Below, one piece after another: positions 2,520-31,256 of a stretch of DNA of 33,991 nt. The notes beneath the pieces were generated by a model. It had not been told where the DNA came from, searched no databases, and saw only the letters and a program-made list of their open reading frames with translations. The stretch's first letter is position 1; every line of letters begins with the position of its first letter. The stretch comes from a virus. A program made the translations under genes and the position numbers. The stretch lies in IMG/VR virus record IMGVR_UViG_3300036770_000781, positions 1 through 33,991 of that record. The stretch is one strand, 5' to 3'.

Positions 2520-3572
2520 TTACATGTGATTTTTGTAATAGAACTCGTCATCTGTCCAGACGTAGTCATCGGGGTTGTCGTCTGTCCGCACAATCGCCTC
2601 ACCAAACAACTCCTCGCGCACCATAGCCACAAAGGTCTCCGGGTCTTCGTACGCCAAGTCAACCATCTGCAAACGGCTCATGTCTAGGATACTTAGGGGT
2701 TCGTTGGCGCTCTTGGTGCTGTACTTCTTGTAGCTACCCCATGAACCCCAGCCAGTCAGCTTGTTGCCATAGCCGTAGTCCAGATACTCCACAACCTTGG
2801 GGTCACGCTTGGTCGGCAGATTCTCCCAGTCAACAGTCAGGCATGCGTCCCGTAGGGCAAACACAGTGGGCAGGTGTAGTGTCTCTTTGCCTGTGTGCTC
2901 GTTCTGGTAGCCGCACGACACGTTGGTACACTCGGGGATAAGCTCGGTGTAGTTGGCAGTATCGGTAAACACCCCGCCATCGTCAGGCACATACATCAGC
3001 TCGTCATTGTGCGCATTGAGTGCGTCGCTTAGGGCTTGGGCAAAGTCGTCCGAACAGCAACGCTGGGAGCCTTGGTGCGTAATAACATCTGAAGAACCAC
3101 GACGGTCAAAGGCAATCGCCCTGTCAAACTTCTCAAGCCAATGCCCGAACTTACTCGCCATATGGCTAGACCCAATGCCGCCACGCTCCTCGCCTCGATG
3201 GAAGATGTACATGCCGGGTATGCCAGCGTCAATCATCTCCAACATAATCCACGCACCCGCACCATCGTCAGCACCCAACGGCTCATTGTCGTTCTTGAAG
3301 TAGCATTGTGTCTTGTGGTCATACTTGACCCGCTGCATACCCTCGTTGCGGTGAACCGTGTCGACGTGACACGAGAAGATTGTCTTTGACTGCGTACCAT
3401 CAGCAAGCGGCACCTCGATAAGAAACGCCGCCTCATCAATGTACTCCGTCTCGTACTTACCGAGAAACCTGTCGACCCATATGTGTTCTGTCTTACCTTC
3501 ATGGGGTCGCTTGTATCGAAGCATCTCGTGAAGTCGTTCGTCGTAGAAGTCTTTCTGTTTGGTATTTTTCAT
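2520..3572 (-). CDS. Dizinc metallopeptidase (M20/M28/M42-like), 350 aa
   Basis: All ligands expected for a co-catalytic two-zinc aminopeptidase or carboxypeptidase are present in order. They are H69-x-D71 in FSCHVDTVH, bridging D102 or D103 in LGADDGAGA, catalytic and ligand E128/E129 in HRGEERGGIGS, D156 in AFDRRG, and H226 in YQNEHTGKE. The last part is followed by a helical C-terminus. No signal peptide is present, so it should act in the host cytoplasm, perhaps trimming peptides. Length fits a single-domain enzyme without the large M20 dimerisation domain. AAGGAG 7 bases before ATG fixes the start. M28, M42 and peptidase-T branches cannot be separated by eye, and the substrate is unknown. 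Confidence 0.8.
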   Translation of the reverse strand: MKNTKQKDFYDERLHEMLRYKRPHEGKTEHIWVDRFLGKYETEYIDEAAFLIEVPLADGTQSKTIFSCHVDTVHRNEGMQRVKYDHKTQCYFKNDNEPLGADDGAGAWIMLEMIDAGIPGMYIFHRGEERGGIGSSHMASKFGHWLEKFDRAIAFDRRGSSDVITHQGSQRCCSDDFAQALSDALNAHNDELMYVPDDGGVFTDTANYTELIPECTNVSCGYQNEHTGKETLHLPTVFALRDACLTVDWENLPTKRDPKVVEYLDYGYGNKLTGWGSWGSYKKYSTKSANEPLSILDMSRLQMVDLAYEDPETFVAMVREELFGEAIVRTDDNPDDYVWTDDEFYYKNHM

Positions 3573-6122: not shown

Positions 6123-6578
6123 TTAAAAGTTACCTTCAGCGACCTGCAAGCAGGTCAGTCCATTCTTACGCCACATATCAACAACCTGCTGTCTGTCATC
6201 CAGCACAAACAGCACACGCTCTTTGTCTATGTGGGCGTCGAGAATCTCTTGCTTAACGATGTTGTCGGCTCTGTAGTCCCCGTCTTTGCGCATGAGCAGT
6301 TGCGTGACGGACGGCTCCCAAACACCTGCCTCGTCCAACCACCAAATGGTGTCTTCTCTGCATCGCTCGGGTCTGCCTGAGCAGAAGATGATATTGAACG
6401 GGGTTGGTTCTCTGTTTAGAAACGCATCCAATATGAACAGCACGGGGGCGTTGACTTTATCTTCACGCACGCCTGCATAGAAGGCGTCCCAGTTCTTCGG
6501 CTTATCGCGGACATGGTGAACCCTGTGCTCGCAGTTGGCGAGCGTGCCATCTAGGTCACATACAATCGTGTCTCTCAT
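6123..6578 (-). CDS. HAD phosphatase, polynucleotide 3'-phosphatase-like, 151 aa
   Basis: The haloacid dehalogenase motifs are all present: D8-L-D10-G-T near the N-terminus, S67 and R69 in FCSGRPE, K109 in VKQEIL and D127-D128 in FVLDDRQQVVDMW. The arrangement and the ending (WRKNGLTCLQV) resemble the 3'-phosphatase domain of T4 polynucleotide kinase (PseT), without the kinase domain. It could remove 3' phosphates from nucleic acid ends; nucleotide substrates are an alternative. ATG 6578 is chosen because AGGAG is 7 bases upstream; the ATG at 6584 is too close to that site. A CUUG hairpin overlaps its 3' end. Confidence 0.8.
   Translation of the reverse strand: MRDTIVCDLDGTLANCEHRVHHVRDKPKNWDAFYAGVREDKVNAPVLFILDAFLNREPTPFNIIFCSGRPERCREDTIWWLDEAGVWEPSVTQLLMRKDGDYRADNIVKQEILDAHIDKERVLFVLDDRQQVVDMWRKNGLTCLQVAEGNF
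6141..6156 (-). other. RNA stem-loop GACCUG-CUUG-CAGGUC
   Basis: A six-base stem with a CUUG tetraloop lies in the last codons of the phosphatase gene, about 35 bases before the next start. It has the same loop as the hairpin at 2492-2509 but a different stem. There is no U-tract. Confidence 0.45.
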
Positions 6579-6589
6579 CTTCATTCTCC

Positions 6590-6688
6590 TTATCCAAAGA
6601 CCACAAAAAAGACGGCAATCATGAACCACAAGCAGATCAGTAAAGCCGCCGCGCCTAGGTACATCACAATCAGTTCTTTCAGGTTCAT
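6590..6688 (-). CDS. Small single-span membrane protein, 32 aa
   Basis: The frame encodes a short N-terminus (MNLKELIV) followed by a hydrophobic stretch covering about residues 7-31 (YLGAAALLICLWFMIAV then FFVVFG). AGGAG lies 7 bases before the ATG, and the gene sits in a fully packed leftward series. Its stop lies in the ribosome site of the phosphatase gene. A single inner-membrane helix is predicted. It could be a holin-like or membrane-targeting microprotein, but nothing shows the role. Confidence 0.7.
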   Translation of the reverse strand: MNLKELIVMYLGAAALLICLWFMIAVFFVVFG

Positions 6689-16744: not shown

Positions 16745-17656
16745 ATGGCTATTTCACGCGCACAACTACTTAAAGAACTCCTCCCAGGACTGAACGCTTT
16801 GTTTGGTCTTGAGTATGCACGCTACGGCGAAGAGCATAAGGAGATTTACGAAACCGAAACCTCTGAGCGTTCATTTGAAGAAGAAACCAAGCTGTCTGGT
16901 TTCTCTGCTGCCCCCGTTAAAAACGAAGGTGCCGCAATTTCTTATGACAACGCACAAGAGGCTTTCACTGCTCGGTACACACACGAAACCATTGCTCTTG
17001 GTTTTTCCGTGACTGAAGAGGCCGTTGAGGACAACCTCTATGACTCTCTTTCTGCTCGGTATACCAAGGCCCTGGCTCGTGCCATGTCGTACACCAAACA
17101 AGTTAAAGCCGCAGCCGTTCTAAACAACGGTTTCGACAGCAACTTCCCTGGTGGCGATGGTGTGCCTTTGTTCTCTGCTTCGCACCCCTTGGTGTCTGGC
17201 GGTGTTAACAGCAACGTTCCCACCACCCCTGCTGACCTGAATGAGACTTCTCTTGAGAACGCCGTTATTCAGATCGCTGCTTGGACGGATGAGCGTGGCC
17301 TGTTAATTGCAGCTCGTCCTCGCAAGCTTGTTATTCCTCCTGCATTGCAGTTTATTGCAACCCGCCTCCTTGAGACTGAACTTCGAGTTGGTACGGCTGA
17401 CAACGACATCAATGCGTTGAAGAATAACGGCTCAATTCCTGAGGGTTACACAATTAACCACTACTTGACCGACACCGATGCGTGGTTCCTTACCACGGAC
17501 GTTCCTAACGGCATGAAGCACTTTATTCGTACTCCGCTTCAGAACTCGATGGATGGTGACTTTGATACCGGCAACGTCCGATACAAAGCCCGTGAACGTT
17601 ATAGTTTTGGCTTCTCCGATCCTCTGGGCATGTTTGGCTCATCTGGCGCGGCGTAA
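16745..17656 (+). CDS. Major capsid protein, 303 aa
   Basis: The gene order and sequence fit an HK97-fold coat protein of the Mu gpT-like branch. The N-terminal arm is charged and includes EIYETETSERSFEEETKL. An E-loop-like part contains YDNAQEAFTARYTHETIALG. The core reads VPLFSASHPLVSGG, then LIAARPRKLVIPPALQFIAT, then WFLTTDVPNGMKHFIRTPLQ. The C-terminus holds RYKARERYSFGFSDPLGMFG. There is no obvious N-terminal prodomain. AAGGAG lies before the ATG. An intrinsic terminator follows the stop by 4 bases, suggesting that capsid mRNA is made in excess of downstream genes. Confidence 0.85.
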   Translation: MAISRAQLLKELLPGLNALFGLEYARYGEEHKEIYETETSERSFEEETKLSGFSAAPVKNEGAAISYDNAQEAFTARYTHETIALGFSVTEEAVEDNLYDSLSARYTKALARAMSYTKQVKAAAVLNNGFDSNFPGGDGVPLFSASHPLVSGGVNSNVPTTPADLNETSLENAVIQIAAWTDERGLLIAARPRKLVIPPALQFIATRLLETELRVGTADNDINALKNNGSIPEGYTINHYLTDTDAWFLTTDVPNGMKHFIRTPLQNSMDGDFDTGNVRYKARERYSFGFSDPLGMFGSSGAA

Positions 17657-19791: not shown

Positions 19792-20181
19792 ATGCCTCTT
19801 GAAATAACACCCAAGACATTTGGCGCAGCTTTTAGTGCTGCTCGTAAACGTGGCGATAAAACCTTTGATTTCAAGGGTAAGAAATACACCACAGAAACTA
19901 AAGAAGAAAAAGTAACGCCCGAGGCTAAAAAAGTCATGGATCAGACGCGTAGAGATCGTGAAGGCAACTTCCGTGCTCAAGCCCGTAAATCTGACGTTGA
20001 CATGGAAACTCCTGAAGAGCGTGGCGCCATGAACCTTGAGGGTTTCAAGCGCGACAAAAAAGACATGGAAGGTTCTGGCGAGTATTCGCCGTTTAAAAAA
20101 GGCGGCTCAGTAAAGTCTTCCGCTTCCAAGCGTGCTGACGGGATTGCAATGCGCGGTAAAACTCGTGGAAAAATGGTCTGA
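19792..20181 (+). CDS. Basic phage protein with SASKRADG tail, 129 aa
   Basis: The N-terminus (ITPKTFGAAFSAARKRGDKT then FDFKGKKYTTETKEE) is a motif I recognise from many environmental phage proteins of unknown role. The middle is charged and probably disordered. The C-terminus (FKKGGSVKSSASKRADGIAM then RGKTRGKMV) is shared with the 68-aa protein at 20845. The protein is presumably virion- or DNA-associated given its charge, but there is no proof. The stop overlaps the next start. Confidence 0.72.
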   Translation: MPLEITPKTFGAAFSAARKRGDKTFDFKGKKYTTETKEEKVTPEAKKVMDQTRRDREGNFRAQARKSDVDMETPEERGAMNLEGFKRDKKDMEGSGEYSPFKKGGSVKSSASKRADGIAMRGKTRGKMV

Positions 20182-20844: not shown

Positions 20845-21051
20845 ATGATGAAAGCAAAAATGGGCGCTTCTAAAATGGGCAAAGTTAAAACAGCTACGCC
20901 TTCTAAAGGCAGTGCATCAAAGCGGGCTGACGGTGTTGCTGTAAAAGGCAAAACCAAAGGGACAATGATGTACGGTGGCGGCATGGCTAAAATGATGGCT
21001 GGTGGTGGCGTTGGCAAAGCCAAAATGATGAAGAGCGGCGGCAAGGTCTAA
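20845..21051 (+). CDS. Small Lys/Gly/Met-rich protein, 68 aa
   Basis: This is a very basic, low-complexity sequence (MMKAKMGASKMGKVKTATPS; SASKRADGVAVKGKTKG; MYGGGMAKMMAGGGVGKAKM). The SASKRADG block repeats the C-terminus of the 129-aa protein. Such Gly-Met-Lys tails occur in virion-associated phage proteins, and membrane or DNA contact is possible. AGGAG lies 7 bases before the first of two adjacent ATG codons. Confidence 0.72.
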   Translation: MMKAKMGASKMGKVKTATPSKGSASKRADGVAVKGKTKGTMMYGGGMAKMMAGGGVGKAKMMKSGGKV

Positions 21052-23935: not shown

Positions 23936-24610
23936 ATGAACTACGCTCAGCTCTTTGAAACCATCAAGGGATATTGCGAGAACGATTTCCCAAGCACCCA
24001 GTTTTCAGATCCGGCTGGGGCTACGGGTACTTTTACGTCCAAAGAGCAGATTGACACGTTCATCCAGCAAGCCGAGCAGCGGATATTTAACTCGGTTCAG
24101 TTTCCTAACTTCCGAAAAAATCAAACAGGCACGCTCACAGCCAATAACAAATACCTAGAAGCGCCGCCTGATTTTTTAGCTTCTTATTCCTTAGCAGTTA
24201 TCACGGACGGTAGCTTTGAATATTTGCTAAATAAAGATGTGAATTACATCCGAGCGGCGTACCCAAGCCCGACAGATACTGGGCTTCCGAAATATTACGC
24301 ACAGTTTGACGACAACACTTTTATTTTGGGACCTACGCCTGATGCTGCTTACACTGTTGAGATGCACTACTTTTTCTACCCTGAGTCTATCGTTACTGCA
24401 TCTACAACTTGGCTTGGGGATAACTTTGATTCTGCCTTACTGTACGGGTCATTGGTTGAGGCGTACACCTACATGAAGGGTGAAGCAGATATTGTGGCTG
24501 CATACAACAAACGCTATGAAGAAGCCATGATTCTGGCTAAACGCCTCGGTGATGGTATGGAGCGCAGAGACGCTTACAGGTCCGGTCAAGTAAGAATGAC
24601 GGTGAACTAA
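23936..24610 (+). CDS. Putative neck protein (tail tubular A-like), 224 aa
   Basis: Helical N-terminus (YAQLFETIKGYCENDFPSTQ; EQIDTFIQQAEQRIFNSVQF), then LEAPPDFLASYSLAVITDGS. A beta region follows (YYAQFDDNTFILGPTPDAAY; VEMHYFFYPESIV), and the C-terminal helices are SALLYGSLVEAYTYMKGEAD and YNKRYEEAMILAKRL. This order is typical of the adaptor proteins of short-tailed phages (T7 gp11-type). It would bridge portal and tail. By-eye assignment only. Confidence 0.68.
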   Translation: MNYAQLFETIKGYCENDFPSTQFSDPAGATGTFTSKEQIDTFIQQAEQRIFNSVQFPNFRKNQTGTLTANNKYLEAPPDFLASYSLAVITDGSFEYLLNKDVNYIRAAYPSPTDTGLPKYYAQFDDNTFILGPTPDAAYTVEMHYFFYPESIVTASTTWLGDNFDSALLYGSLVEAYTYMKGEADIVAAYNKRYEEAMILAKRLGDGMERRDAYRSGQVRMTVN

Positions 24611-25018
24611 ATGGCGTTTACTGGCAACTACACATGTAATTCTTTTAAATCTGGTCTGATTAACGGGGATTTTGACTTTGATACCGACACCATCAAGATG
24701 GCGTTGTACACGAACGCTGCGACGTTAGATGAAGATACAGCCGCCTACACAACCACAGGTGAGGTATCTGCGTCGGGGTACACAGCAGGTGGCGTTACTC
24801 TTACAGTCGAAAAAGGGCTTACAAATAACACCGCCTTCATTAGTTTTGAAAACGTCACAATCTCTGCCGCTTTTACTGCGAGGGGGGCGTTGATTTATAA
24901 AGATGGTGGCGCCGCTATTTGTGTCCTTGACTTTGGTTCAGATAAAGTTTCTACAAACACGTTTATCGTTACATTCCCCACGGCTTCCAGCGCTGATGCA
25001 CTCATAAGGCTGACTTAA
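24611..25018 (+). CDS. Small structural protein, 135 aa (paralogue 1)
   Basis: This is a beta-rich, low-charge protein: NSFKSGLINGDFDFDTDTIK, MALYTNAATLDEDT, EVSASGYTAGGVTLTVEKGL, then GALIYKDGGAAICVLDFGSD. Its plan (K-MALY/F, then Y-T-GG, then a strand before FG) is shared with the 155-aa protein at 26438, so the two look like diverged duplicates. It is probably a virion protein. The start follows the neck gene with no gap, and the end overlaps the next ATG. Confidence 0.7.
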   Translation: MAFTGNYTCNSFKSGLINGDFDFDTDTIKMALYTNAATLDEDTAAYTTTGEVSASGYTAGGVTLTVEKGLTNNTAFISFENVTISAAFTARGALIYKDGGAAICVLDFGSDKVSTNTFIVTFPTASSADALIRLT

Positions 25019-26436
25019 TGTTCACCTCCTTTCACTCTGACCCGCCGACAGTACAGATTAAGCCCATTCGCCCAGCCGAAAAGGACATCTATAAAACGAT
25101 GTGGAGCAAGCCGGAGTACCGGACTGTGGCCCCAGGTGAGCATTGTGCAATGGACTTTCTGGCTCAGGCCCAGCCCAAAAAGGGCGAAACGGTGCTTGAT
25201 CTAGGGTGTGGAACGGGCCGAGGCGGTTTGGCTTTGGCCTTCTTTGGTGGCTTAAACGTTACCCTGGTGGACTTTGCCGATAACTGTCTGGACGAAGATA
25301 TTCGCCCAATGCTTGAAACCCAAGCTCATGCTTTGCGGTTTGTTGAGCATGACCTGACAGAGCCGCTGACCCAAGGTGCCACCTACGGTTTTTGCACAGA
25401 CGTCTTAGAGCATATTCCGACCGAGGATGTGGATAAGGTTTTGGATAACTGCCTAGCGGCCTGTAAGCACGTTTTCTTCCAGATTTCCACGGTGGATGAC
25501 GTTATGGGGGGCATGATTGGGCACCCCTTGCATCTGACGGTCCAACCCTACGAGTGGTGGCTAAAGAAATTTACGGACCGGGGCTGCATTGTCCACTGGT
25601 CCAAGCAAGACAGTATCTCCTGCATGTTGTATGTCTCGGCCTGGGTGCCGATGGACAAGGTCGAAGTCTCTGGCAGGCTTAACATCGAGCTTGAGCAGGT
25701 TCGTGAGAACGTCAGGCAGAACATCAAAAAGGGCTTCCAACAGGTCGTGCCGCATCCCACCAACGATGTCGAGGTGATGATTGTAGGTGGTGGGCCGTCT
25801 TTGAAGCGGGATATTGAAAAGGTCCGGGAGCTGCGGGACCAGGGCGTCAAGCTGATCTGCATGAATAACGCCTACAGCTTTTGCCTTGAGCACGGTATAA
25901 CACCGTCTGCCTACATTCAGGTGGATGCTCGGGAGTTCAACACAAGGTTTGTTGAGAAGGTTATTCCTGAGTGCAAGTATTTTATTGCCTCGCAATGCCA
26001 CCCTTCGATGTTTGACAAGCTGCCCAAAGAACAGACATTTATCTGGCACACAAGCGCAGAAGATGTTAACGATGTACTGGCTGAAGAGTACAAGAATTGG
26101 TATCCTGTCCCTGGTGGCTCGACTGTCTTGTTACGAGCGCTGCCCTTGTTTAGAATGTTAGGGTTCAAACGTTTCCATATTTTAGGCTGTGATTCATGCC
26201 TAGAAGAGGGGGCGCATCATGCCTACGAGCAAAAAGAAAATGACGGGCAACCTGTTGTTTCTGTGCGCATCGGGGAAAAAGTTTTCTTCTGTCACCCTTG
26301 GATGGTTTCTCAAGCGCAAGAGTTTATTGACTTGATTGGCTGCATGGGGGACGTTATGGAGTTGGAAATTTACGGTGGGATGCTCCACCAAATTCTAGTG
26401 GATGGTGCTTCTCGCGCCGATTTAAAGGAGATTTAA
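25018..26436 (+). CDS. Methyltransferase-DUF115 fusion protein, 472 aa
   Basis: The N-terminal domain (about residues 20-220) is a class I SAM methyltransferase with motif I LDLGCGTGRGG at 60-70, VTLVDFADNCLDED next, and FCTDVLEHIPTEDVDKVLDN. The C-terminal domain (about 240-460) has GGGPSLKRDIEKVREL, NNAYSFCLEHGITPSAYIQV, an Asp-Ala-Arg, then PVPGGSTVLLRALPLFRMLG and HILGCDSCLEEGAHHAYE. These are signatures of DUF115/MptE-like proteins, a Rossmann family including pterin pyrophosphokinase and flagellin-glycosylation Maf proteins. The fusion could modify a sugar or virion component. No membrane segment is seen. Confidence 0.82.
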   Translation: MFTSFHSDPPTVQIKPIRPAEKDIYKTMWSKPEYRTVAPGEHCAMDFLAQAQPKKGETVLDLGCGTGRGGLALAFFGGLNVTLVDFADNCLDEDIRPMLETQAHALRFVEHDLTEPLTQGATYGFCTDVLEHIPTEDVDKVLDNCLAACKHVFFQISTVDDVMGGMIGHPLHLTVQPYEWWLKKFTDRGCIVHWSKQDSISCMLYVSAWVPMDKVEVSGRLNIELEQVRENVRQNIKKGFQQVVPHPTNDVEVMIVGGGPSLKRDIEKVRELRDQGVKLICMNNAYSFCLEHGITPSAYIQVDAREFNTRFVEKVIPECKYFIASQCHPSMFDKLPKEQTFIWHTSAEDVNDVLAEEYKNWYPVPGGSTVLLRALPLFRMLGFKRFHILGCDSCLEEGAHHAYEQKENDGQPVVSVRIGEKVFFCHPWMVSQAQEFIDLIGCMGDVMELEIYGGMLHQILVDGASRADLKEI

Positions 26437-26437
26437 A

Positions 26438-26905
26438 ATGGCTGCTTCAGCTTGGCAACTTTACAATTCTGGTAAAAGGTACATCGGCAACGGCACGATC
26501 ACGCTGGGTGCAGGTAGCTTCAAGATGGCTCTGTTTAATAGTGCCAGCAACACTTCGACTTTCACCCTAAGCACGTTTGCTTCGTTGACCGGGCAGATTT
26601 CGGCAACCGGCGGCTACACTTCTGGTGGTAAAGAGCTTGTGCCTGCTACGGGCCAATGGACGGTTGGTGCTTCCGCAAAGCAGATGAAGTTCACCTATTC
26701 AACGGTGGGCCTGACATTTACGGCTTCTGGCTCAGCACTTACAAACGTAAAATACGCTGTGTTGACCTTTGGTGCGTCGGCGGGTGTGGCTTCTGCACGT
26801 AAACTTCTGTGCTTCTGCCAGCTCTCTTCAAGTCAATTCACGGTGGCAAGCCCCAATACGTTAACGGTTCTACCTGCTGCAACTGGTGTGTTTACATTGA
26901 CCTAA
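26438..26905 (+). CDS. Small structural protein, 155 aa (paralogue 2)
   Basis: This is beta-rich with few charges: WQLYNSGKRYIGNGTITLGA, GSFKMALFNSASNTSTFTLS, then TGGYTSGGKELVPATGQW and VKYAVLTFGASAG. It shares the layout of the 135-aa protein on the other side of the methyltransferase-DUF115 gene. A virion role is likely. AAGGAG lies about 7 bases before the ATG. Confidence 0.7.
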   Translation: MAASAWQLYNSGKRYIGNGTITLGAGSFKMALFNSASNTSTFTLSTFASLTGQISATGGYTSGGKELVPATGQWTVGASAKQMKFTYSTVGLTFTASGSALTNVKYAVLTFGASAGVASARKLLCFCQLSSSQFTVASPNTLTVLPAATGVFTLT

Positions 26906-28762: not shown

Positions 28763-30415
28763 ATGACTGGCATCTTAAATGCACTTTTTGCTTCTCTGGC
28801 GGGGCCACAGAATGTAACCGTCATCCAATCCTTTACCGCTACTGGTAGTTGGGTATGCCCTACAGGTGTTACAGAGGTGGAGTTTTTGGTTGTTGCTGGT
28901 GGCGGCGGCGCAGGTTCAGCGCAAGGTGGTGCTGGTGGTGCTGGTGGATACAGAACAGCATCAGGACAATCTGTTACAGCCGGAACGACTTACACTATTA
29001 CTGTTGGTGCAGGTGGCCCTGGTGGTGCATCTGGTGCAAAAAATTCAGGTTCTCAAGGATTTAGTTCTTCAATTGTTGGTGGTTCTTCATCACCATTTCA
29101 ATCTCCCGGTATTGTGTCTGCTGGCGGTGGATTTGGTGGATCGGCTCTTGGTGTAGGAGGAGATGGTGGTTCTGGTGGTGGAGGTGGTCCGGAATTTGCA
29201 AATGCAGGTGGTTTAGGAAACACTCCAAACACATCTCCTAGCCAAGGCAGTAACGGTGGTGCTGGTGGAAACTCTCCTAATTTTGGAAGCGGCGGTGGGG
29301 GAGGCGCAGGTGGTACAGGAGGAAACGGAACTACTTCAACGGGTGGAAATGGGGGGCTTGGATCGTCTTCAAGTATTACTGGAACAAGCGTACCTTATGC
29401 TTCGGGTGGCGCAGGCGGTTCATACGCCGGAGGAACGATTGGAACCGCATCTGCTGGTGGAGGAGGTGCAGCAGGAGCCTCCGGCCCTAGTGCAAACAAC
29501 CCAGGAACTGCTGGAGCCGCAAATACTGGTGGAGGTGCTGGTGGTAATAGTTGCTCTGGGGCTGGAGATATAAATGTCGCTGGGGTATCTGGCGGCTCTG
29601 GCATCGTCTTCCTAAAATACCTTGTACCTGTAGGAACAACTGTCACGCACATTTATAACGGATCGGGTTCGTGGGTTGCGCCTACGGGGGTGACTTCTGT
29701 GGACTGGCTTGTTGTTGCTGGTGGTGGCGGGGGTGGTAGGGTAGGTGGTGGCGGGGGTGCTGGCGGCTTTAGAACTGGCACAGGGTTAAGTGTTACCTCT
29801 GGAACTTCTTATCCTATTACTGTCGGTGCAGGTGGAACTGGTTCAAATACAGATAGCGTTGCAGCTGCAAGTGGTGGGAACTCAACATTTAGTACTATTA
29901 CATCAGCAGGTGGTGGTGGGGGTGGCTCTAACCCAAATCCTTCTGCTGGTGTAGCAGGTGGTTCAGGCGGTGGAGCAGGTTGCACAGGTGTAGCCTTAAA
30001 CCCCGGCGGTGCAGGAAATACACCAGTCACTTCTCCAAGCCAAGGCAATAGTGGCGGGAACAATAGTACTAGCCAGCCCAATCTTGGTGCTGGCGGTGGT
30101 GGTGGAGCAACTGATCCCGGAGCAAACGGAACAAGCACTACAGGCGGTAATGGCGGGAACGGTACTGCGTCATCAATTTCAGGAACTTCTACCCTTTATG
30201 CTGGCGGTGGGGGTGGTGGGACAATTGGTGGAGGAACTGCTGGTACGGGTGGCACAGGCGGCGGTGGAAACGCTGGTACGGCTGGTGGAAACAATCCCGG
30301 CTCTAATGGAACCGCTAATACTGGAGGTGGAGCAGGTGGATCAAGCTATCAGTCTGCACCTGTTGCAGGCGGCACAGGCGGCTCTGGCATCGTAATTATC
30401 AAATACACGACTTAA
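28763..30415 (+). CDS. Glycine-rich fibre/adhesin with internal duplication, 550 aa
   Basis: Two related halves (about residues 17-290 and 293-549) each begin with a strand module (GSWVCPTGVTEVEFLVVAGG and GSWVAPTGVTSVDWLVVAGG). Each continues through a long Gly-rich region and ends SGIVFLKY or SGIVIIKY. Runs such as GGAGG and GGGGGAGG suggest packed polyglycine-II helices as in the T-even-type S16 gp38 adhesin. It is likely the receptor-binding tip, since the hypervariable Gly loops suit host-range changes. It follows the fibre gene by 9 bases. Confidence 0.78.
   Translation: MTGILNALFASLAGPQNVTVIQSFTATGSWVCPTGVTEVEFLVVAGGGGAGSAQGGAGGAGGYRTASGQSVTAGTTYTITVGAGGPGGASGAKNSGSQGFSSSIVGGSSSPFQSPGIVSAGGGFGGSALGVGGDGGSGGGGGPEFANAGGLGNTPNTSPSQGSNGGAGGNSPNFGSGGGGGAGGTGGNGTTSTGGNGGLGSSSSITGTSVPYASGGAGGSYAGGTIGTASAGGGGAAGASGPSANNPGTAGAANTGGGAGGNSCSGAGDINVAGVSGGSGIVFLKYLVPVGTTVTHIYNGSGSWVAPTGVTSVDWLVVAGGGGGGRVGGGGGAGGFRTGTGLSVTSGTSYPITVGAGGTGSNTDSVAAASGGNSTFSTITSAGGGGGGSNPNPSAGVAGGSGGGAGCTGVALNPGGAGNTPVTSPSQGNSGGNNSTSQPNLGAGGGGGATDPGANGTSTTGGNGGNGTASSISGTSTLYAGGGGGGTIGGGTAGTGGTGGGGNAGTAGGNNPGSNGTANTGGGAGGSSYQSAPVAGGTGGSGIVIIKYTT
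28810..30412 (+). repeat. Tandem duplication of a Gly-rich module (about 830 bases each)
   Basis: The first copy runs to about 29625 and the second from about 29640. Shared markers include SPSQG, TGGNGG and SS-IxGTS in the same order. Confidence 0.65.
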
Positions 30416-30417
30416 CT

Positions 30418-30648
30418 ATGGACGCAAAACTTTACAGACTTTATGGCATCGACACAGCCATGCACTTACTTCGCCCCGGTGCTAAGTGGGAAATCTCAAA
30501 CTCAGTTATTACCAAGTGGGATGACCCAAGACCGCAACCAAGCATGGAAGAGGTCAAAGAAGTCATGGATAAGATTCAGGCGTTTGAGGACTCCATAAAC
30601 ACCATCTGGCTACCAGAGCAGATAGAAGAACTTACAGGAAGAAAATGA
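30418..30648 (+). CDS. Fibre-associated small protein, 76 aa
   Basis: The sequence (YRLYGIDTAMHLLRPGAKWE; NSVITKWDDPRPQPSMEEVK; FEDSINTIWLPEQIEEL) matches a small protein I repeatedly associate with the gene after fibres in environmental phages. Its location suggests a fibre chaperone or minor component; no function is shown. The start is 2 bases after the fibre stop, and the end overlaps the next gene (ATGA). Confidence 0.7.
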   Translation: MDAKLYRLYGIDTAMHLLRPGAKWEISNSVITKWDDPRPQPSMEEVKEVMDKIQAFEDSINTIWLPEQIEELTGRK

Positions 30649-31256
30649 TCCACAACCTATTTCCCACACCTGTTGCGATCTACAAGCTAGAGCGTGATCT
30701 AACCGCAAAGGAATTGTCGTTCATAAAGGGCCAAGAAACACGCCCGAACATGGGCAATGTCACCTCTACTAACAACACGATTCTCCGCAGTAAAGAGATG
30801 ACTAAGCTGCGGGACTTCATGGAGACTAAGGTTGCGGAATACTTTAAGACCATCCACAACCCTAAGCACGATGTAAGCCTACGCATCACGCAGTCGTGGA
30901 CGAACTACACAGAGCCGGGGCAGTTTCATCATAAACACGCACACCCTAATTCATTCGTTTCTGGTGTCTTTTACCCACAGGCCAACAGAGAAACAGACAA
31001 GATTTACTTCTACCGTGATGGGTTCCAGCAGATTAAGTTTCCCCCTGCGGAGTGGAATATCTGGAACTCGGAGAGCTGGTGGTTTGAAGTAGGAACAGGG
31101 GACTTGGTTCTTTTCCCATCGTCGTTGACCCACATGGTTGAAACGGTACAGGGCGATCAGACAAGAATCAGTCTGTCGTTTAATACTTTCCCCATAGGTT
31201 TGGTAGGGGATGAGATGAACCTTACGGGGTTGCAACTTGAATCTGTTAAAGGCTAA
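30645..31256 (+). CDS. 2-oxoglutarate/Fe(II) oxygenase, 203 aa
   Basis: The fold markers of the phage-type 2OG-Fe(II) oxygenase family (2OG-FeII_Oxy_5-like) are present. QFHHKHAHPNSFVSGVFY (residues 93-110) holds the first iron ligands. GDLVLFPSSLTHMVETV gives the distal His (H163), and R174 in TRISLSFNTF binds 2-oxoglutarate. It would hydroxylate a protein, nucleotide or small molecule in the host cell. Similar enzymes are frequent in marine phages. AAGAAA is a weak ribosome site; coupling to the upstream gene is likely. Confidence 0.83.
   Translation: MIHNLFPTPVAIYKLERDLTAKELSFIKGQETRPNMGNVTSTNNTILRSKEMTKLRDFMETKVAEYFKTIHNPKHDVSLRITQSWTNYTEPGQFHHKHAHPNSFVSGVFYPQANRETDKIYFYRDGFQQIKFPPAEWNIWNSESWWFEVGTGDLVLFPSSLTHMVETVQGDQTRISLSFNTFPIGLVGDEMNLTGLQLESVKG

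Follow-up and report, generated by a model that had tools for sequence, protein, structure and literature searches.

The window analysed in this study (a 33,991-bp virus record from IMG/VR, with genes for terminase, portal, head, adaptor and endolysin) contains a gene whose product joins an N-terminal methyltransferase (MT) to a C-terminal DUF115 domain (Table 1). We consider it rather probable that this protein is a bifunctional enzyme which attaches a sugar obtained from the host to a virion protein and methylates this sugar, the target being deduced from the position of the gene among virion genes. The type of enzyme and the partnership between MT and DUF115 are well supported. Phage proteins similar to this fusion of a Maf-like transferase domain with a complete MT, here within a phage virion module, are already present in UniProt under automatic names.

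Table 1. Position of the fusion gene, its domains and motifs, and conserved neighbouring genes in the window
Feature	Coordinates	Strand	Evidence
MT-DUF115 fusion gene, 472 aa	25018..26436	+	single uninterrupted ORF, Pfam, AF2 model
Class I SAM-dependent methyltransferase domain (predicted), residues 15-212	25060..25653	+	Methyltransf_25 2.6e-9; 11 invariant residues, 58/58 rows
SAM-binding motif I, DLGCGTGRG, residues 61-69	25198..25224	+	sequence motif, conserved in alignment
DUF115/MptE-like/Maf-type domain, about residues 225-460	25690..26397	+	PF01973 1.1e-23; profile against Maf 5mu5 3.5e-11
GGGPSL loop, residues 257-262	25786..25803	+	S261 in 59/59 rows; aligns with GPS of Maf and GPSL of Cst-II
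HHAYEQ, residues 400-405	26215..26232	+	H401 and Q405 invariant; HH aligns with HH of Maf
SU10-type adaptor (head-tail connector) protein	23936..24610	+	PF24175 1e-24; conserved neighbour
Upstream neighbour, phrog_644 family	24611..25018	+	phrog_644 8.6e-23; position kept across the whole IMG/VR family
Downstream neighbour, second phrog_644 protein	26438..26905	+	phrog_644 2.7e-12
Major head protein, same virion block	16745..17656	+	phrog_371 5.2e-24

Domain structure and conservation of the fusion protein

The fusion of both domains in a single ORF, which the initial annotation had read from short motifs, was recovered by Pfam with scores above the curated cut-offs: Methyltransf_25 matches residues 59-150 (E 2.6e-9), with further MT matches in NCBIfam, and PF01973 covers residues 229-396 (E 1.1e-23; 84.3 bits against a gathering cut-off of 34.6). 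All of those motifs are found in the protein, namely LDLGCGTG (residues 60-67), GGGPSL (257-262), NNAY (283-286), GGSTV (366-370) and LGCD (389-392). The ATG of the fusion gene shares one base with the TAA stop codon of the gene upstream, and 2 bp lie between its own stop codon and the start of the next gene, which makes it part of a tight string of genes. Purifying selection acts on both halves of the protein. In comparison with a relative that is 98% identical (L001), dN/dS is 0.016 for the whole gene, 0.019 for the MT half and 0.012 for the DUF115 half; synonymous sites are mostly saturated in pairs more distant than this one. The low dN/dS of the gene and its invariant sites (see below) rule out a chance or decayed fusion.

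The structure prediction that had been suggested for this protein yielded a confident AF2 model with a mean pLDDT of 91.5 and a pTM of 0.67 (the deeper of two models; the earlier one had a pLDDT of 72.9), and its top PDB match in Foldseek is the flagellin glycosyltransferase Maf (5mu5, E 1.5e-12), followed mostly by methyltransferases. Conservation was assessed in an alignment of 92 rows, comprising full proteins and domain pieces in both domain orders. Eleven residues of the MT half (D61, G63, G65, G67, D85, D112, D128, E131, H132, H172 and W181) are invariant in all 58 rows covering this domain; eight residues of the DUF115 half (S261, N283, D303, G382, G390, D392, H401 and Q405) show no variation in the 59-60 rows that include it. 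Key residues have thus been retained at both sites across 58-60 diverse rows, rather than lost at both, the outcome that would have spoken against the initial annotation. The MT half shows a Rossmann MT fold, motif I (DxGxGxG) and an acidic residue after strand 2 (D85), and its model matches SAM- or SAH-bound methyltransferases such as ChlM (4qdk). From these catalytic-type residues it is predicted to be an intact class I SAM methyltransferase.

Relationship of the DUF115 half to Maf, GT42 and MptE

By sequence, profile and fold, Maf is the best match of the DUF115 half. Searched against the PDB, the DUF115 profile hit Maf 5mu5 with an E value of 3.5e-11, MptE 8sd5 with 0.009 and Cst-II with 0.22. 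An hhalign comparison with the central domains of bacterial Maf proteins gathered by PF20157 gave Prob 97 and E 1e-10 and extended over the 'LGFK.....G.D' core up to the HH motif. The phage domain and Maf from Magnetospirillum (5mu5) or Clostridium botulinum (CbMaf) have in common PF01973, the GxGPS loop, the LGF...G-D core and the HH that follows it. In addition, NCBIfam reports a weak match of residues 239-407 to the flagellin modification protein PseD (3.9e-5).

The fusion protein nevertheless differs from Maf in several respects. PF20157 (Maf_flag10_N) is absent from its Pfam matches at E 0.1, and the helical C-terminal domain of Maf is missing, as the protein ends at residue 472 directly after DUF115; recognition of an acceptor in the manner of flagellin can therefore not be assumed. 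Unlike Maf, it contains a full SAM motif in its MT domain, and it is encoded among virion genes, whereas Maf is found in flagellar loci. In Maf, PF01973 is preceded by a Rossmann-like domain that PMC11339370 describes as weakly MT-like; comparison of the phage MT half with this N-terminal domain revealed no sequence link (hhalign E 0.28). The Foldseek alignment to Maf spans 491 columns but superposes poorly (TM 0.42, rmsd 18). We do not take this two-domain span as proof of a degenerate MT in the Maf N-domain, because other multi-Rossmann proteins span both domains too.

The PF01973 domain of Maf resembles the GT42 enzyme Cst-II, and CbMaf moves Neu5Ac and Kdo from the CMP donors CMP-Neu5Ac and CMP-Kdo to Ser/Thr (PMC11339370). 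The direct match of the phage domain to Cst-II is non-significant alone, and it aligns the GNGPSL and LGYKEIYLSGID stretches of a GxGPSL loop and core common to both. In a hand alignment the catalytic His of Cst-II, which we take to be His188, is unconserved and lacks a clear counterpart in the phage protein. Judged by homology, that is, by its closeness to Maf and the likeness of the Maf PF01973 domain to Cst-II, the DUF115 half is a putative Maf-like, GT42-related transferase, yet not a Maf.

Genomic location

SU10-type adaptor genes precede the fusion gene and further virion genes follow it, so that the earlier assignment of the gene to the tail region was roughly right. In the clade of the window the order adaptor, phrog_644, fusion gene, phrog_644 is constant wherever the contig is long enough and gene calling is sound (the neighbourhoods of L068 and L072 were mis-called because of a long, spurious ORF on the antisense strand). 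In the clade with the reversed domain order (DUF-MT) the gene is the second one after the major head gene, preceded by a putative scaffold, the head and a small virion protein, with phrog_9953 and phrog_29386 among these genes in one member (L085). The gene adjoins the major head gene in L082 and L083, and it stands directly behind it in L083 and in the metagenome-assembled record MW202621 (phrog_267, phrog_247). Retention of the enzyme in the virion block across unrelated head families favours a virion target over a target on the host surface or on DNA. The location also implies late expression, yet it is no proof of a virion target.

Several other genes in these regions deserve mention. Downstream of fibre-like genes the window encodes a 2OG-Fe(II) oxygenase (30645-31256; PF13759 1.7e-20, phrog_81 1.3e-45), which only two of the 18 related records share, one by a weak match, and which is thus outside the conserved set. 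A glycine-rich protein with two Gly_rich_2 (PF21722) matches (28763-30415) is probably fibre-related. Small basic proteins with a common SASKRADG...KGKT motif (19792-20181 and 20845-21051) occur in several copies per locus in relatives, and M28 peptidase-like and PNKP-phosphatase-like proteins are encoded in a leftward-transcribed region (2520-3572 and 6123-6629, minus strand). A GNAT-type acetyltransferase (phrog_4470; 12988-13398 in L085, and in relatives) is conserved a few genes after the DUF-MT gene and might be a further modifier.

Relatives and recurrence of the pairing

At least 80 IMG/VR loci encode relatives of the fusion protein in the first scan, mostly full-length and with 60-98% identity, and at least 80 loci were obtained in each of five scans; these counts come from the best 80 loci, overlap earlier scans in part and show variety, not abundance. 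Using HMMs of both halves, at least 82 nonredundant fused relatives were recognised at 90% identity (32 MT-DUF and 50 DUF-MT). The sole match in the phage collection is MW202621 (Manatee Spring), with no cultured phage among the matches. Genome contigs scanned with the sequence of the fusion protein alone gave no match; scanned with the alignment they gave 10 loci, several of which resemble phage contigs or prophages. Separately, nine loci (L306-L310, L312-L314, L324) were seen to encode bacterial proteins of the Maf type, about 940-1020 aa long, the majority of which match PF20157 twice within a single reading frame.

A scan led by divergent MTs demonstrated that the pairing is not peculiar to the window phage, but recurs fused, in swapped order and split. 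In 70 of the 78 loci listed, the MT is fused to, or adjoins, a domain of DUF115-like or sialyltransferase-like type: 37 are DUF-MT and 8 MT-DUF fusions, 2 are split into MT and DUF115 genes, 11 pair the MT with a separate GGxP protein of the MW202621/Lysobacter type (10 with the MT in front and 1 with the order reversed), and 12 (11 split, 1 fused) involve a third GxGPSL family. No partner was found at the other 8 listed loci; the sequence of L357 stops with the MT, and that of L341 stops 42 bases past it. The arrangement of an MT followed by a separate GGxP protein in overlapping reading frames is seen in MW202621 and in a contig of Lysobacter dokdonensis (L088) that seems to be a prophage. 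The GGxP proteins of these two loci share 38% identity and are related to the DUF115 family in a non-circular comparison (P0003 left out of A3; P 0.00077, score 31.7 against a shuffled maximum of 18.4). In the MT tree all MT-DUF proteins fall to the same side of a branch (99/95); the tree needs one change between the two fused orders, and the split pair has its own branch.

The partner modules include further enzymes of glycan metabolism. The third GxGPSL family matches phrog_4603, annotated as alpha-2,3-sialyltransferase (3.9e-21 for the member in L344), and occupies the DUF115 slot beside the same MT family; in several of these split loci the gene after the MT encodes a sulfotransferase (Sulfotransfer_3/4, Pfam up to 3.4e-13). 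Such cassettes of a sialyltransferase-like protein, a methyltransferase and a sulfotransferase were observed in the phage virion blocks of L344 (3415-5145), L347, L348 and L352; the one in L344 lies downstream of a major head protein of another family (phrog_1005). A 686-aa triple fusion in L386 (2546-4606) carries an N-terminal glycosyltransferase (GT; phrog_1962 4.8e-15) in front of DUF115 (4.9e-15) and MT, and is placed behind head genes with the same layout as in the DUF-MT clade. Proteins of similar size occur in L389 and L408 (686-688 aa across the three loci). The recurrent pairing and the GT, sialyltransferase and sulfotransferase partners constitute strong guilt by association, suggesting that the sugar made is methylated and, in some of the phages, also sulfated.

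Proposed function and alternative explanations

We propose that the fusion protein would act as a cytoplasmic, bifunctional glycan-modifying enzyme produced alongside the virion proteins. Its DUF115 half is very likely, judging from homology and partner genes, a glycosyltransferase-type enzyme that acts together with the MT on a sugar. This Maf/GT42-type domain would transfer the sugar to hydroxyl groups of a phage structural protein, perhaps a phrog_644 or head protein, and the N-terminal MT would methylate it with SAM before or after transfer. The sugar would most likely be drawn from a host-supplied CMP-activated ulosonic acid: a search of 18 records of related phages, 42-98 kb long and possibly fragments, revealed neither NeuB nor a CMP-sugar synthetase, so that the donor would have to come from the host. 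CMP-Kdo, which is present in Gram-negative hosts, is a guess by analogy with CbMaf, and our confidence in this or any other particular donor is low.

Of the outcomes envisaged by the initial annotation, a modified sugar built or attached on the virion is the best supported, because of the Maf-type DUF115 domain, the intact MT, the glycan-enzyme partner modules and the fixed location in the virion block; modification of the host surface found no support here, and a function in pterin metabolism is disfavoured. A surface glycan of the host, such as an LPS or capsule precursor, could be glycosylated and methylated during infection, blocking superinfection or freeing progeny from receptors, since GT42 and Maf-type enzymes act on bacterial surface sugars and Cst-II is an LOS sialyltransferase. 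Phage-encoded serotype conversion of the host is known as well (PMC12619734). This explanation is nevertheless unlikely given the fixed virion-block position, which holds for both domain orders and for phages with unrelated major head proteins, and in the neighbourhoods that were read we noticed neither a membrane nor a lipid-carrier gene; genes for seroconversion usually stand apart as accessory genes. A second possibility, to which we give little weight, is methylation of a protein by the MT, for instance on a side chain of the capsid, with DUF115 doing no more than recognising or binding a substrate or nucleotide. It would fit L358 and L360, in which the MT has no detected partner, and L385 (3980-5093) and L388 (4001-5143), where tandem methyltransferase-like genes were found and no DUF115 partner, but it leaves unexplained that S261, N283, D303, D392, H401 and Q405 of DUF115 are as invariant as the residues of the MT, and that other members have GT, sialyltransferase-type or sulfotransferase partners.

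The family name MptE-like and the weak profile match to MptE (6-hydroxymethyl-7,8-dihydropterin pyrophosphokinase, an archaeal cofactor enzyme), which belongs to the same Pfam family and has the GxGPS loop and G-D core, would be in line with transfer of the diphosphate of a nucleotide to a pterin or other small alcohol, coupled to methylation in a cofactor or small-molecule pathway. However, Maf is closer by eight orders of magnitude, the alignment to MptE ends before the HH stretch of the phage protein, and no other pterin gene was recognised among the window proteins examined, in addition to the location in the virion block; this makes such a pathway very improbable, and the profile comparison led us to reject pterin kinase as the main function. 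Hypermodification of DNA or nucleotides with a sugar and a methyl group is the least probable of these explanations. Methyltransferases can modify DNA, and so can phage GTs (Pyle et al. 2024, as cited in PMC12619734), but the gene is found in the virion block, away from replication genes, and sulfotransferase partners suit glycans or proteins better.

Comparison with known systems and implications

The combination of a GT and a SAM MT in one protein has a parallel in flagellin glycosylation islands, whose GT-MT fusions (GT41, GT2) belong to loci that decorate a filament protein; in contrast to the phage fusion these involve other GT families and are bacterial, outside a phage context (PMC4875605). 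Among viral proteins the top fold matches are 'MptE-like' proteins of uncultured Caudovirales phages in UniProt/BFVD (A0A6J5PVH5, A0A6J7XC21, A0A6J5L5C1), one of them over 554 columns; they are longer (540-700 aa), with automatic names and functions that are predicted only. A literature search for phage DUF115, MptE-like or Maf proteins retrieved no relevant paper. To our knowledge, glycosylation of virions is known in few phages, mycobacteriophages reportedly being among them (a 2023 paper in Cell Host Microbe).

Tentatively, we suggest that the fusion protein may belong to a system for virion glycosylation that is widespread and has so far been met in uncultured phages only. In this system a mix-and-match set of a Maf-like or sialyltransferase-like transferase, an MT and sometimes an extra GT or sulfotransferase might be inherited as a standard part of the head/adaptor block and use CMP-sugars of the host to decorate capsid or tail proteins with methylated and sulfated sugars. 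If this is true, a large group of uncultured environmental phages would carry a built-in particle-glycosylation enzyme that is without counterpart in any cultured phage of the searched collection, and the Maf/DUF115 family would extend from flagella to viruses.
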